DNA from: Oscillospiraceae bacterium
GTDB lineage: Bacteria > Bacillota > Clostridia > Oscillospirales > Oscillospiraceae
Length of the DNA stretch: 64,000 nt
NCBI GenBank assembly: GCA_015068325.1
Contig: SVKQ01000021.1
Location: 62,001 to 126,000, forward strand
Reading direction: 5' to 3'
The notes beneath the pieces were generated by a model. It did no database searches and had not been told where the DNA came from. It saw nothing but the letters and a program-made list of their open reading frames with translations. This document shows, piece by piece, positions 17,207-21,018 of the stretch. A program made the translations under genes and the position numbers. Every line of letters begins with the position of its first letter. Within the stretch, counting starts at the first letter, position 1.

Positions 17207-17769
17207 CTCTTTTGCCGCCCCCTTATCACTTCGATCACGAGTCCTGCGGCGGCCGCGGCCAGCACGTAGAGAACAGGCGACAGGTCCAGGAACACCGCAC
17301 CGGCGAACACAACCAAAAAGATCACCAGGGCAGACCGGTCCTTTACCGCGCTCTTCCACAGCTTCAGCACGGCGTTGAAAATCAGCACGCACACGCACAC
17401 GCGGATACCGGCAAAGGCGTGCTGCACCCACGGCAAATGGGAAAAGGCGGTAATGACACCGGCCAGCGCCGTGATGATCACCAGGGACGGGAACACCACG
17501 CCCAGCGTGGTCACGACGCCGCCCAAGATCCCCCGCTTCTTCTGACCGATGAAGGTGGCCGTATTCACGGCGATGACGCCGGGTGTACACTGGCCGATGG
17601 CGAAATAATCCGTCAGCTCCTCGTCGGTGGCCCAGCCCTTGTTCTCCACCACCTCACGCTGCAGGATGGGCAGCATAGCATAGCCGCCGCCAAAGGTCAT
17701 GACGCCCACCCTGGCGAAGGTCAGAAACATATCCAGCAGCTCTCTCAAGTCCTTTTCCCCCCTACACAT
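17203..17769 (-). CDS. Chromate transporter, first half of split ChrA (start could also be a TTG at 17748)
   Basis: VMTFGGGYAMLPILQREVV, GQCTPGVIAVNTATFIG. Confidence 0.9.
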   Translation of the reverse strand: MCRGEKDLRELLDMFLTFARVGVMTFGGGYAMLPILQREVVENKGWATDEELTDYFAIGQCTPGVIAVNTATFIGQKKRGILGGVVTTLGVVFPSLVIITALAGVITAFSHLPWVQHAFAGIRVCVCVLIFNAVLKLWKSAVKDRSALVIFLVVFAGAVFLDLSPVLYVLAAAAAGLVIEVIRGRQKR

Positions 17770-18748
17770 ATCCGTACAATCCCCGCACCGACACCTCGCC
17801 GGAGCGGAGCGTTTCCGTCGTTCCGTCGTCATAGCGCACCGTCAGTCCGAACCGGTCGTCCACGGCCAGGGCCTCCGCCTCGGCATGGACATCGCCCCGC
17901 AGCACCTGCACGCGGCTGCCCACGGTGAGACACCGGGCGCGGTAGGACTCCAGCCACCGCTCCGGCGCGAACAGCACTCCCCGCCGCAGCTCATCCAGCT
18001 CCTCCAGCAGCGCTGCCGCCAGCGCCGCGCGCCGGACCGGCGCCGGCAGCACCATATCCAGCGAGGCGGCGATATCCGCCAGCTCCGGCGGGAAGTCCTC
18101 CGCCCGCTGACGGCAGTTGACACCGATGCCCACGATCACATGGTCCACCCGGCCGCTCTCCCCCTCCAGGGACATCTCCGTCAGGATGCCGCAGAGCTTC
18201 CTCCCCTTCAGCACCAGGTCATTGGGCCACTTGATGGCAGGGCTGACGCCGCTCAAACGCTTGACGGCGCGGCAGACCGCCACGGCGCTGAGCGCCGTCA
18301 GCGGCAGCAGCAATTCCGGCGCACAATCCGGCCGCCACAGGATAGACAGGTACAGCCCCTGCCCCGCCGGGGAGAGAAAACTGCGGCCGCGGCGTCCCTT
18401 GCCCGCCGTCTGGCAGTCGGCCATGACCACCGTGCCGTCTGGCGCGCCGTCTGCGGCCAGGCGGCGGCAGGCCGTGTTGGTAGAGTCCACCTGGGCCAGC
18501 ACCTGCCAGTTGTCCCGCGGGGCCGTCAGGCAGGCCTCCACCGTCTGCCGGTCCAGCAAATCCGGCGTGGCTGCCAGCCGATAACCCAGTCCGCTGCGGG
18601 CCTCGATCTCACAGCCTCTGCTGCGCAGCGCAGCCACAGCCTTCCACACCGCCGCTCGGCTGACACCCAAACGGCGGCTCAACTCCTGGCCGGAGAGAAA
18701 TTCCCCCTGCCGCTCTGCCAGCGCCTGATAGACCCGATCTCGGCTCAT
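17762..18748 (-). CDS. birA: Bifunctional biotin--[acetyl-CoA-carboxylase] ligase / biotin operon repressor
   Basis: N-terminal wHTH (LSRRLGVSRAAVWKAV), QTAGKGRRGRSFLSP biotin-AMP loop. Confidence 0.96.
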   Translation of the reverse strand: MSRDRVYQALAERQGEFLSGQELSRRLGVSRAAVWKAVAALRSRGCEIEARSGLGYRLAATPDLLDRQTVEACLTAPRDNWQVLAQVDSTNTACRRLAADGAPDGTVVMADCQTAGKGRRGRSFLSPAGQGLYLSILWRPDCAPELLLPLTALSAVAVCRAVKRLSGVSPAIKWPNDLVLKGRKLCGILTEMSLEGESGRVDHVIVGIGVNCRQRAEDFPPELADIAASLDMVLPAPVRRAALAAALLEELDELRRGVLFAPERWLESYRARCLTVGSRVQVLRGDVHAEAEALAVDDRFGLTVRYDDGTTETLRSGEVSVRGLYGYV

Positions 18749-18828
18749 GGCAATGCCCATCCTTTCCCAAGATATTCCCACTCTACCACGAAAGGAGGCA
18801 TTTGTAAACGCGCCTTTTATAAATGCAG

Positions 18829-18886
18829 TTGACAAATCCCGTCTTTCACTGTATTGTAAACCTATATTTCAATATGAGGTTTACAA
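18829..18886 (+). promoter_or_regulatory. bioY promoter with BirA operator
   Basis: TTGACA -17- TATTGT; TTGTAAACC (18854-18862)-N15-GGTTTACAA (18878-18886). Confidence 0.93.
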
Positions 18887-18888
18887 TT

Positions 18889-19437
18889 ATGAGGACACGC
18901 GCACTGATCTATACCGCTCTCTTTGCCGCGCTCACAGCCGTCGGTGCCTTTTTGCGCATTCCTGTGGGGCCGGTGCCCATCACGCTGCAGTTCCTGTTCA
19001 CCGCCATGGCAGGCATCTTGTTGGGGCAGCGCTATGGTGCGCTGAGTCAGCTGGTCTACGTGGCGCTGGGTCTGGTGGGTCTTCCCATCTTCACCCAGGG
19101 CGGCGGGCCGGGATATGTATTCCAGCCCAGCTTCGGCTTTCTGCTGGGGCTGATTCCCTGCGCCTGGGTCATCGGAGCCCTCGCCAGGCGGCGCTCCGAC
19201 GCGCCGTGGCTGGCACTGTCCTGCGCAGCCGGTTTGGCCGTGCTGTATCTGGTGGGCGTGCCCTACATGGCGCTGATTCTGAACGTTTATCTGGACAAGG
19301 GGCTGGACCTGACGGCCGTTCTCAAGATTGGTATGTTGCCCTTCTTGCCCGGCGACGCGCTGAAGATCACGGCGGCCGCGGTCGTCTGCCCTGTCCTGCG
19401 GAGGCGTTTGTGCAATTTTGACGAATTTCGCGCGTGA
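18889..19437 (+). CDS. bioY: Biotin transporter BioY
   Basis: LTAVGAFLRIPVGPVPITLQFLFTAMAGILLG, GLPIFTQGGGPGYVFQPSFGFLLG. Confidence 0.97.
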   Translation: MRTRALIYTALFAALTAVGAFLRIPVGPVPITLQFLFTAMAGILLGQRYGALSQLVYVALGLVGLPIFTQGGGPGYVFQPSFGFLLGLIPCAWVIGALARRRSDAPWLALSCAAGLAVLYLVGVPYMALILNVYLDKGLDLTAVLKIGMLPFLPGDALKITAAAVVCPVLRRRLCNFDEFRA

Positions 19438-19467: not shown

Positions 19468-19626
19468 TTGCTTTTTTTGCCATCGGCCCGTATAATAAGC
19501 AAGAAAATTCGAGGAGGTGAGAGGCATGACGCTGCAGGTGTACTGCAAGAAGAGCGCCGTTCTCTCCGTTTCTTCCTCTGTCAGTGCCATTTCCTTTTGA
19601 CCGGTTTTTCACCGGTCCTTTTTTTT
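19468..19626 (+). promoter_or_regulatory. Promoter + leader peptide + intrinsic terminator (attenuator) ahead of uracil permease
   Basis: TTGCTT-17-TATAAT; leader ORF 19526-19600; GACCGGT-ttttc-ACCGGTC stem followed by T8, stop codon overlaps stem. Confidence 0.75.
19526..19600 (+). CDS. Putative leader peptide MTLQVYCKKSAVLSVSSSVSAISF
   Basis: Strong RBS gaggaggtgagaggc; stop codon at base of terminator hairpin. Confidence 0.65.
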   Translation: MTLQVYCKKSAVLSVSSSVSAISF

Positions 19627-19683
19627 GCCTGTCGTCAGCAATTTTTAATGGATATACAAAACGGAGAAAGAGAGGTCAACCAC

Positions 19684-21018
19684 ATGAAAAAAGATTCCCT
19701 TGGCCAGGAGGCCATCTACGACGCCCGGTCGCTGGGCGTGCCACGCATGCTGGTGCTGGGCCTGCAGCACCTGTGTGCCATGTTCGGCGCCACCGTGGTC
19801 GTTCCCATCATCATCAGCGGCGCCTACGGTCTGCCCATGACCGTACAGACCACACTGCTGATGGCCGGGCTGGGCACGCTGCTGTTCCACGTACTCACGA
19901 AGTTCAAGGTTCCCGCCTTCCTGGGCTCCTCCTTCGCCTATCTGGGCGGCTTCGGCATCATGGGTGGCTTGGATGCCGGCAAATATGCCACCATGAGCGG
20001 CGACGAGAAGCTGGCCTACGCCCTGGGCGGCGTGGTGGTGGCCGGTCTTCTCTACCTGTTGCTGGCCCTGCTGTTTAAGCTCATTGGCGTGAAGAAGGTC
20101 ATGCGCTTCTTCCCGCCCATCGTCACCGGTCCCATTATCATCCTGGTCGGTTTACATCTGGCGGGCTCCGCTGTGGATAACGCCAGCCAGAACTGGGGCA
20201 TCGCTCTGGTCTCTATTCTAATCGTTATCGTTGTCAATATTTGGGGCAAGGGTATGATCAAAATCATCCCCATCCTGCTGGGTGTGGTAGGCGGCTGCGT
20301 CGTAGCGGCCCTCACCGGCAACATGAGCTTTGCGGAGGTTCATGACGCCAGCTTTTTTGGTCTGCAAAAGTTTACAATGGCAAAGTTTGATCTAACCGCC
20401 GTTTTGGTCATGGCGCCCATCGCCATCGCCGCCATGATGGAGCACATCGGCGATGTGTCTGCCATCTCCTCCACCACAGGCCGCAACTTCATCGAGGATC
20501 CCGGCCTACACCGCACCCTGCTGGGCGATGGTCTGGCCACTGCTTTAGCTGGTTTCTTCGGCGGCCCTCCCAATACCACCTATGGTGAGAACACCGGTGT
20601 TTTGGTGCTCTCCAAGGTATATGATCCCCGTGTCGTGCGTCTGGCCGCCTATTTTGCCATTATCCTGAGTTTCTCCCCCAAGTTTGACGCGTTGGTTACC
20701 TCCGTACCCGCCGCAGTAATCGGCGGTGTCAGCTTCATCCTCTATGGTATGATTGCTGCTGTGGGTGTCCGCAATGTTGTGGAGAATCAGGTCGATTTGA
20801 CTAAGTCCCGCAATTTGATCATTGCGGCCGTGATTTTCGTCAGCGGTCTGGGTATCAACGGTATCACTTTCACCTTGGGCGGTGCTGACGTCACCATCAC
20901 TGGTATGGCAATTGCCGCTTTGGCCGGTGTGTTGCTCAACGCCATCCTTCCCGGTAAAGACTATGAGTTTGGCACAAGTGTCAAGGGCGACAAGTCCGCC
21001 GACATGGGCTCCTATTGA
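19684..21018 (+). CDS. Uracil-xanthine permease family (NCS2)
   Basis: LGLQHLCAMFGATVVVPIIIS, GGPPNTTYGENTGVL NCS2 signature motifs. Confidence 0.95.
   Translation: MKKDSLGQEAIYDARSLGVPRMLVLGLQHLCAMFGATVVVPIIISGAYGLPMTVQTTLLMAGLGTLLFHVLTKFKVPAFLGSSFAYLGGFGIMGGLDAGKYATMSGDEKLAYALGGVVVAGLLYLLLALLFKLIGVKKVMRFFPPIVTGPIIILVGLHLAGSAVDNASQNWGIALVSILIVIVVNIWGKGMIKIIPILLGVVGGCVVAALTGNMSFAEVHDASFFGLQKFTMAKFDLTAVLVMAPIAIAAMMEHIGDVSAISSTTGRNFIEDPGLHRTLLGDGLATALAGFFGGPPNTTYGENTGVLVLSKVYDPRVVRLAAYFAIILSFSPKFDALVTSVPAAVIGGVSFILYGMIAAVGVRNVVENQVDLTKSRNLIIAAVIFVSGLGINGITFTLGGADVTITGMAIAALAGVLLNAILPGKDYEFGTSVKGDKSADMGSY

Follow-up and report, generated by a model that had tools for sequence, protein, structure and literature searches.

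The uracil permease gene analysed here is preceded by a leader that is quite probably a UTP-sensing, translation-coupled transcription attenuator; judged from comparative sequence analysis and from analogy with known systems, it would turn uracil import on when UTP is low. Comparison showed the leader open reading frame (ORF), its uridine-rich second half and a stop codon in or next to the terminator to be under selection across Oscillospiraceae. The leader lies in a window of 64,000 nucleotides, i.e. the whole stretch of DNA that was analysed, from an Oscillospiraceae bacterium.

Anatomy of the leader and its surroundings

Direct reading of the plus strand located a promoter of the form TTGCTT-17-TATAAT (19468..19496), with its -35 box TTGCTT at 19468-19473, its -10 box TATAAT at 19491-19496 and a spacer of 17 nt; TTG-17-TATAAT was displayed by 25 of 25 genus leaders. 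It was missed by a consensus scan because TTGCTT matches the -35 consensus at only three of six positions. Transcription would start at about 19503. Downstream, on the same strand, are found a Shine-Dalgarno (SD) sequence (AGGAGGTG, 19512..19519) and a leader ORF of 24 sense codons plus UGA (19526..19600), in which the ATG is at 19526, the sense codons read MTLQVYCKKSAVLSVSSSVSAISF and the UGA occupies 19598-19600. Codons 12-24 (19559..19597, plus strand) form a uridine-rich 3' half, enriched in U and in third-position T, which is proposed as the zone of UTP-dependent RNA polymerase pausing. The intrinsic terminator GACCGGT-TTTTC-ACCGGTC, followed by C and T8 (19599..19626, plus strand), was recognised by reading, by covariation and by a terminator scan; its stem arms are at 19599-19605 and 19611-19617 and its T8 tract at 19619-19626. 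The permease has its own SD sequence, GAGAGG (19670..19675, plus strand, direct reading), and starts 83 nt past the end of the leader ORF. The sequence-only reading had claimed this promoter, SD sequence, 24-codon ORF and terminator as well as a permease ATG at 19684, and direct reading and the terminator scan recovered all of them at the coordinates claimed; the UGA was also placed rightly within the 5' arm of the stem, which starts inside the stop codon. The two strands of the window carry 24 terminator-like hairpins, of which that of the permease leader was the sole one found to be entered by a short, U-rich, SD-led ORF.

The permease (19684..21018, plus strand, 444 aa) is a UraA-like member of NCS2. 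In profile searches it scored above the cut-off of TIGR00801 and matched PF00860, and its nearest solved relatives were UraA uracil permeases, which have the EH and NTTYGEN segments in common with it. Homology, motif and context are the grounds for calling it a uracil permease, since its score against the strict UraA equivalog model (325) was below the cut-off (477). In other lineages, the permease homologue adjoins pyrR (L036 and L232) or upp (L223), lying 3' of them.

Directly upstream of the leader is bioY (about 18889-19437, plus strand, stop at 19437), which is divergent from a birA-like gene (17762-18835, minus strand). The sequence TTGTAAACC-N15-GGTTTACAA between these two genes (18854-18886) is a likely BirA operator, through which biotin control beside the leader is likely to be of the ordinary kind.

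No further copies of the device were recovered from the window's own genome, in which model R1 detected only the permease leader above chance. No comparable leader was present in the pyrB, pyrE, upp and second NCS2 regions examined there, and none was seen when the sequence upstream of pyrG was read.

Conservation and uridine content across Oscillospiraceae

The permease was present in 49 of 60 relatives according to the genome search. All 25 genus leaders (own genome counted) kept the promoter, SD sequence, ORF, stop-fused terminator and NCS2 permease, in a common plan consisting of TTGNNN-17-TATAAT, an SD sequence, an ORF of 19-28 codons, a stop fused to the base of the terminator, a T-run and the permease. 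Pooling 110 permease loci yielded 98 with a terminator, of which 85 (87 %) displayed an ORF with SD sequence and ATG ending in or next to it; an ORF running into the terminator arose by chance in 1.4 % of dinucleotide shuffles. These locus statistics rely on a strict rule (ATG start only, stop in the stem), under which ~13 % of terminator-bearing loci lacked an ORF. Under a looser rule, leader ORFs were also proposed for L146, L164, L168 and L178; these were rejected, being actually the ends of upstream genes. Leader ORF length ranged across loci from 14 to 42 codons (median 23.5). As judged from 80 named loci, the plan reaches Flavonifractor, Pseudoflavonifractor, Flintibacter, Lawsonibacter, Oscillibacter sp. 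ER4, MSJ-31 and others, and its cultured carriers include Flavonifractor plautii ATCC 29863, Flintibacter muris and Oscillibacter sp. ER4.

Between genera, the ORF itself was kept and the leader peptides were unrelated, as were the terminator sequences (e.g. GACAAUCAC and GCAAUUGUU types). The expectation of the earlier reading that an alignment in related Oscillospiraceae would reveal a conserved ORF and terminator with a variable peptide was thus confirmed. Weak constraint on the peptide is possible, as leader dN/dS was roughly 0.2-0.8 on these very short sequences. Two loci (L119 and L120) encode permeases 92-93 % identical to that of the window, yet their hairpin differs and places the stop codon at the loop, an instance of fast terminator turnover inside a kept plan. 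Outside the family, the device was found in some families of the order and missing in many, and order-wide matches of model R1 outside Oscillospiraceae were mostly terminators at chance level. In L032, L196 and L216, which belong to another family (f7 and the like), the terminator (GCAUUUUUAUUCUU..AAGGAUAAAGGUGC) takes its 5' arm from the U-rich end of the leader, and the stop codon falls at the loop.

The consensus fold of the leaders retained the terminator alone as a conserved structure, and no conserved antiterminator was found in it. Four of the eight terminator pairs displayed compensatory change. In the outermost pair, one partner of which is the second base of the stop codon, GC stood in 17 leaders, AU in five and GU in three; the change from UGA..UC to UAA..UU at this pair indicates that frame and stem are kept together. 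An SD/CU pairing in the single-sequence fold of the window was considered as an antiterminator and rejected, as it was not conserved.

Uridine content was assessed over the last 12 codons (36 nt) of 72 distinct leaders, with the same peptides recoded in host-permease codon usage and random permease stretches as controls. The U fraction was 0.48, versus 0.32 after recoding and 0.22 in random permease coding, and UUU stood at 5.15 versus 1.10 and 0.29, respectively, i.e. ~5-fold over recoding. Third-position T was observed 425 times versus 86.9 expected from the amino acids. Associated p-values treat relatives as independent and overstate significance, so that the safer measure is that 71 of the 72 leaders, across many genera, exceeded their own recoded version in U. 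C was depleted over the same 36 nt, YC dimers were not raised (6.57 versus 9.18 recoded and 7.08 in random coding) and the A fraction of the leader end was 0.11. Within the genus, third-position T reached 70 % in the last ten codons versus 11 % in permeases, and GTT accounted for 89 % of Val codons in leaders versus 7 % in permeases. Along the leader, U was 0.21-0.29 up to 36 nt past the AUG and then rose to ~0.5, near which it remained as far as the stop. From the U and UUU excess over recoding, the C depletion, the low A fraction and the 71 leaders, it follows that the selected property is uridine in RNA rather than amino acid, C or general AT-richness. The description of the leader end as pyrimidine-rich in the earlier reading thus held for its uridine-rich part and failed for C, which is not enriched. 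Such U-specific selection at codon level is what UTP sensing would predict.

Proposed mechanism and alternative explanations

A ribosome extends ~15 nt ahead of its P-site codon and RNA polymerase holds ~14 nt of RNA. With these footprints, the polymerase would have left the leader start site free by about +29, shortly ahead of the U-rich zone, and a ribosome with the UGA in its A site would reach ~19610, covering the whole 5' arm and the loop. Most leaders have their stop inside the stem or directly at it, which makes overlap between ribosome and hairpin possible by position. When UTP is ample, the polymerase would cross the U-rich stretch fast and leave the ribosome behind; the hairpin would then fold and transcription would end short of the permease. 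At low UTP, the polymerase would pause in the U-rich stretch just past clearance of the leader start site, letting a ribosome load, catch up and reach the stop codon as the hairpin is made. By covering the 5' arm, this ribosome would block termination, the permease would be made and imported uracil would restore UTP. In this scheme, the pausing, its dependence on UTP and the direction of control are inferred. In E. coli, a ribosome at a stop codon located five bp ahead of a terminator reduced termination from ~90 % to below 10 % (PMC4824070). Runaway transcription in B. subtilis, as cited in PMC9226507, would fit termination by default and make the catching up of the ribosome strongly pause-dependent.

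The gene content of the carriers would suit a UTP-gated importer. The own genome, which is 95 % complete, had no full-length CarB match and encodes PyrE and Upp by sequence. Its sole pyrB over cut-off (L079, G000:C14:136500-147500) is accompanied by pyrK- and pyrD-like genes and adjoins TRAP-type transporter, ornithine-cyclodeaminase-like and Asp/Glu-racemase-like genes; this cluster is perhaps catabolic rather than biosynthetic. Eight carriers that were at least 90 % complete (G002, G010, G014, G015, G018, G022, G024 and G026) displayed no pyrB over cut-off, and all of them except G015 also lacked a pyrD-family match over cut-off; together with the missing CarB of the own genome, this suggests that much of the genus is auxotrophic for pyrimidines. 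Since several carriers are without pyrB and mostly without pyrD, uracil uptake is likely to be essential in them.

The strongest rival, although improbable, is that the T-rich tract serves NusG-stimulated pausing and that the signal is leader translation (inhibitors or general rate) instead of UTP, in the style of yxjB/tlrB. It ranks first because stop codon and terminator work together in the same manner in the tlrB leader: in B. subtilis, T-rich non-template DNA is contacted by NusG, and pausing at tlrB buys loading time for a ribosome that blocks the terminator, so that the same anatomy would serve both readings (PMC6851288). Against this, TTNTTT was counted 69 times versus 66 +/- 8 after codon-order shuffling and did not occur in the window leader, the elemental pause motif showed no enrichment, and the genes involved encode a uracil permease, not a resistance determinant, behind peptides with no conserved arrest sequence. 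Sensing of Ser, Val or Phe by leader-peptide attenuation of the trp/his type would account for the frequency of Ser, Val, Phe and Ile in the final codons; it is very unlikely, since no position displayed a fixed amino acid or codon run, the property shared by the leaders being U-rich codons, no conserved antiterminator was found and no amino-acid gene is controlled.

Control by PyrR, or by another ligand-binding RNA that the models miss, has little probability left. The own genome does encode PyrR, as a stand-alone gene (L080, 3066-3596, minus strand; NF003549, 231 bits versus a cut-off of 138), and sub-threshold PyrR RNA matches were encountered in the relatives G006, G012 and G029, some of them a short distance 5' of pyr genes. 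The own genome itself yielded no PyrR-binding RNA, however; neither a PyrR site nor another relevant Rfam family was detected in the leader at gathering or lenient thresholds, and Rfam matches were absent from the entire window and from 20 related permease loci. The statement of the sequence-only reading that the leader carries no obvious PyrR-binding motif thereby withstood a covariance search of the leader and these 20 loci. The terminator was the only conserved structure, and an RNA aptamer would need neither an ORF nor third-position U. A ZMP/ZTP riboswitch was observed in G012 (L083, 2032-2113, minus strand). About as doubtful as amino-acid sensing is the view that the hairpin is simply where transcripts of bioY, or of a short untranslated RNA, end, that the permease has a separate downstream promoter and that the ORF is incidental: the bioY transcript would also meet the terminator, but a conserved promoter and SD sequence lie between the two, the promoter scan of the window found no promoter-like match 3' of the terminator, and both the frequency of ORFs entering terminators and the selection for U-rich codons would be left unexplained. 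Rho-dependent control, with the pyrimidine-rich leader as a rut site exposed when untranslated, is the least credible alternative. Species with runaway transcription do terminate purine-poor exposed RNA by Rho (PMC13323073), but the depletion of C and the unenriched YC dimers speak against a rut site, and an intrinsic terminator is present.

Relation to known attenuators

To our knowledge, UTP-sensing translation-coupled attenuation is enterobacterial and Firmicutes use PyrR; no published Firmicute case of such an attenuator was found in the open-access literature. A wider reading, which we hold tentatively and consider slightly less than evenly balanced, is that Bacillota independently evolved a UTP gauge that joins ribosome to polymerase under UTP scarcity alone, in a possibly otherwise uncoupled lineage, and that this gauge displaced PyrR at the permease, peptide and terminator drifting while U content, frame and stop-in-stem were kept. 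If true, a regulator-free nucleotide sensor arose convergently in the abundant gut Oscillospiraceae, and this counterpart sits on a uracil importer in several likely pyrimidine auxotrophs. The leader would be a natural test of ribosomes catching RNA polymerase in Bacillota, B. subtilis being reportedly uncoupled, and the cultured carriers make its mechanism testable.

Two Firmicute systems invite comparison. The B. subtilis yxjB/tlrB leader likewise has an ORF whose ribosome, near the stop, disturbs the terminator hairpin; it responds to tylosin and needs a NusG pause for timing (PMC6851288). The Oscillospiraceae leaders differ in their uracil permease target and their U enrichment throughout, and they have no conserved arrest peptide, the peptides being unrelated across genera. 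With the PyrR attenuators of Firmicute pyr genes (RF00515), which precede uracil permease as well as pyr genes, they share a terminator before a uracil permease and a presumed response to pyrimidines; in place of a PyrR RNA, which was not found, they display an ORF and a U-codon bias.

The pyrBI leader pyrL works through U-dependent pausing (PMC10135430). Common to both are a dedicated short leader ORF, a U-rich stretch before an intrinsic terminator, a pyrimidine-related target and the lack of a dedicated regulator. In contrast to pyrBI, the Oscillospiraceae target is a transporter, the host phylum is Bacillota and the leader peptide is apparently unrelated. pyrL, with 44 codons, runs past the terminator and ends shortly ahead of pyrB, whereas the Oscillospiraceae ORF stops in or at the stem; an ORF reaching through the terminator to near the gene, as a strict definition of the pyrBI type would have it, was not found in the window leader. 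The term pyrBI-like used in the earlier reading is thus apt for the leader ORF, U-rich stretch and terminator, and inapt for the position of the stop. Under a broader definition covering pyrBI and pyrE, the leader displays an SD-led ORF before a terminator, a U-rich segment and ribosome overlap by position, with no binding RNA or antiterminator. In the E. coli rph-pyrE attenuator, the stop is located at the base of the stem, unlike the read-through of pyrBI, and the geometry of the Oscillospiraceae leader is nearer to that of rph(orfE)-pyrE; rph is a full gene, whereas the Oscillospiraceae mini-ORF is a dedicated one whose peptide is not conserved.
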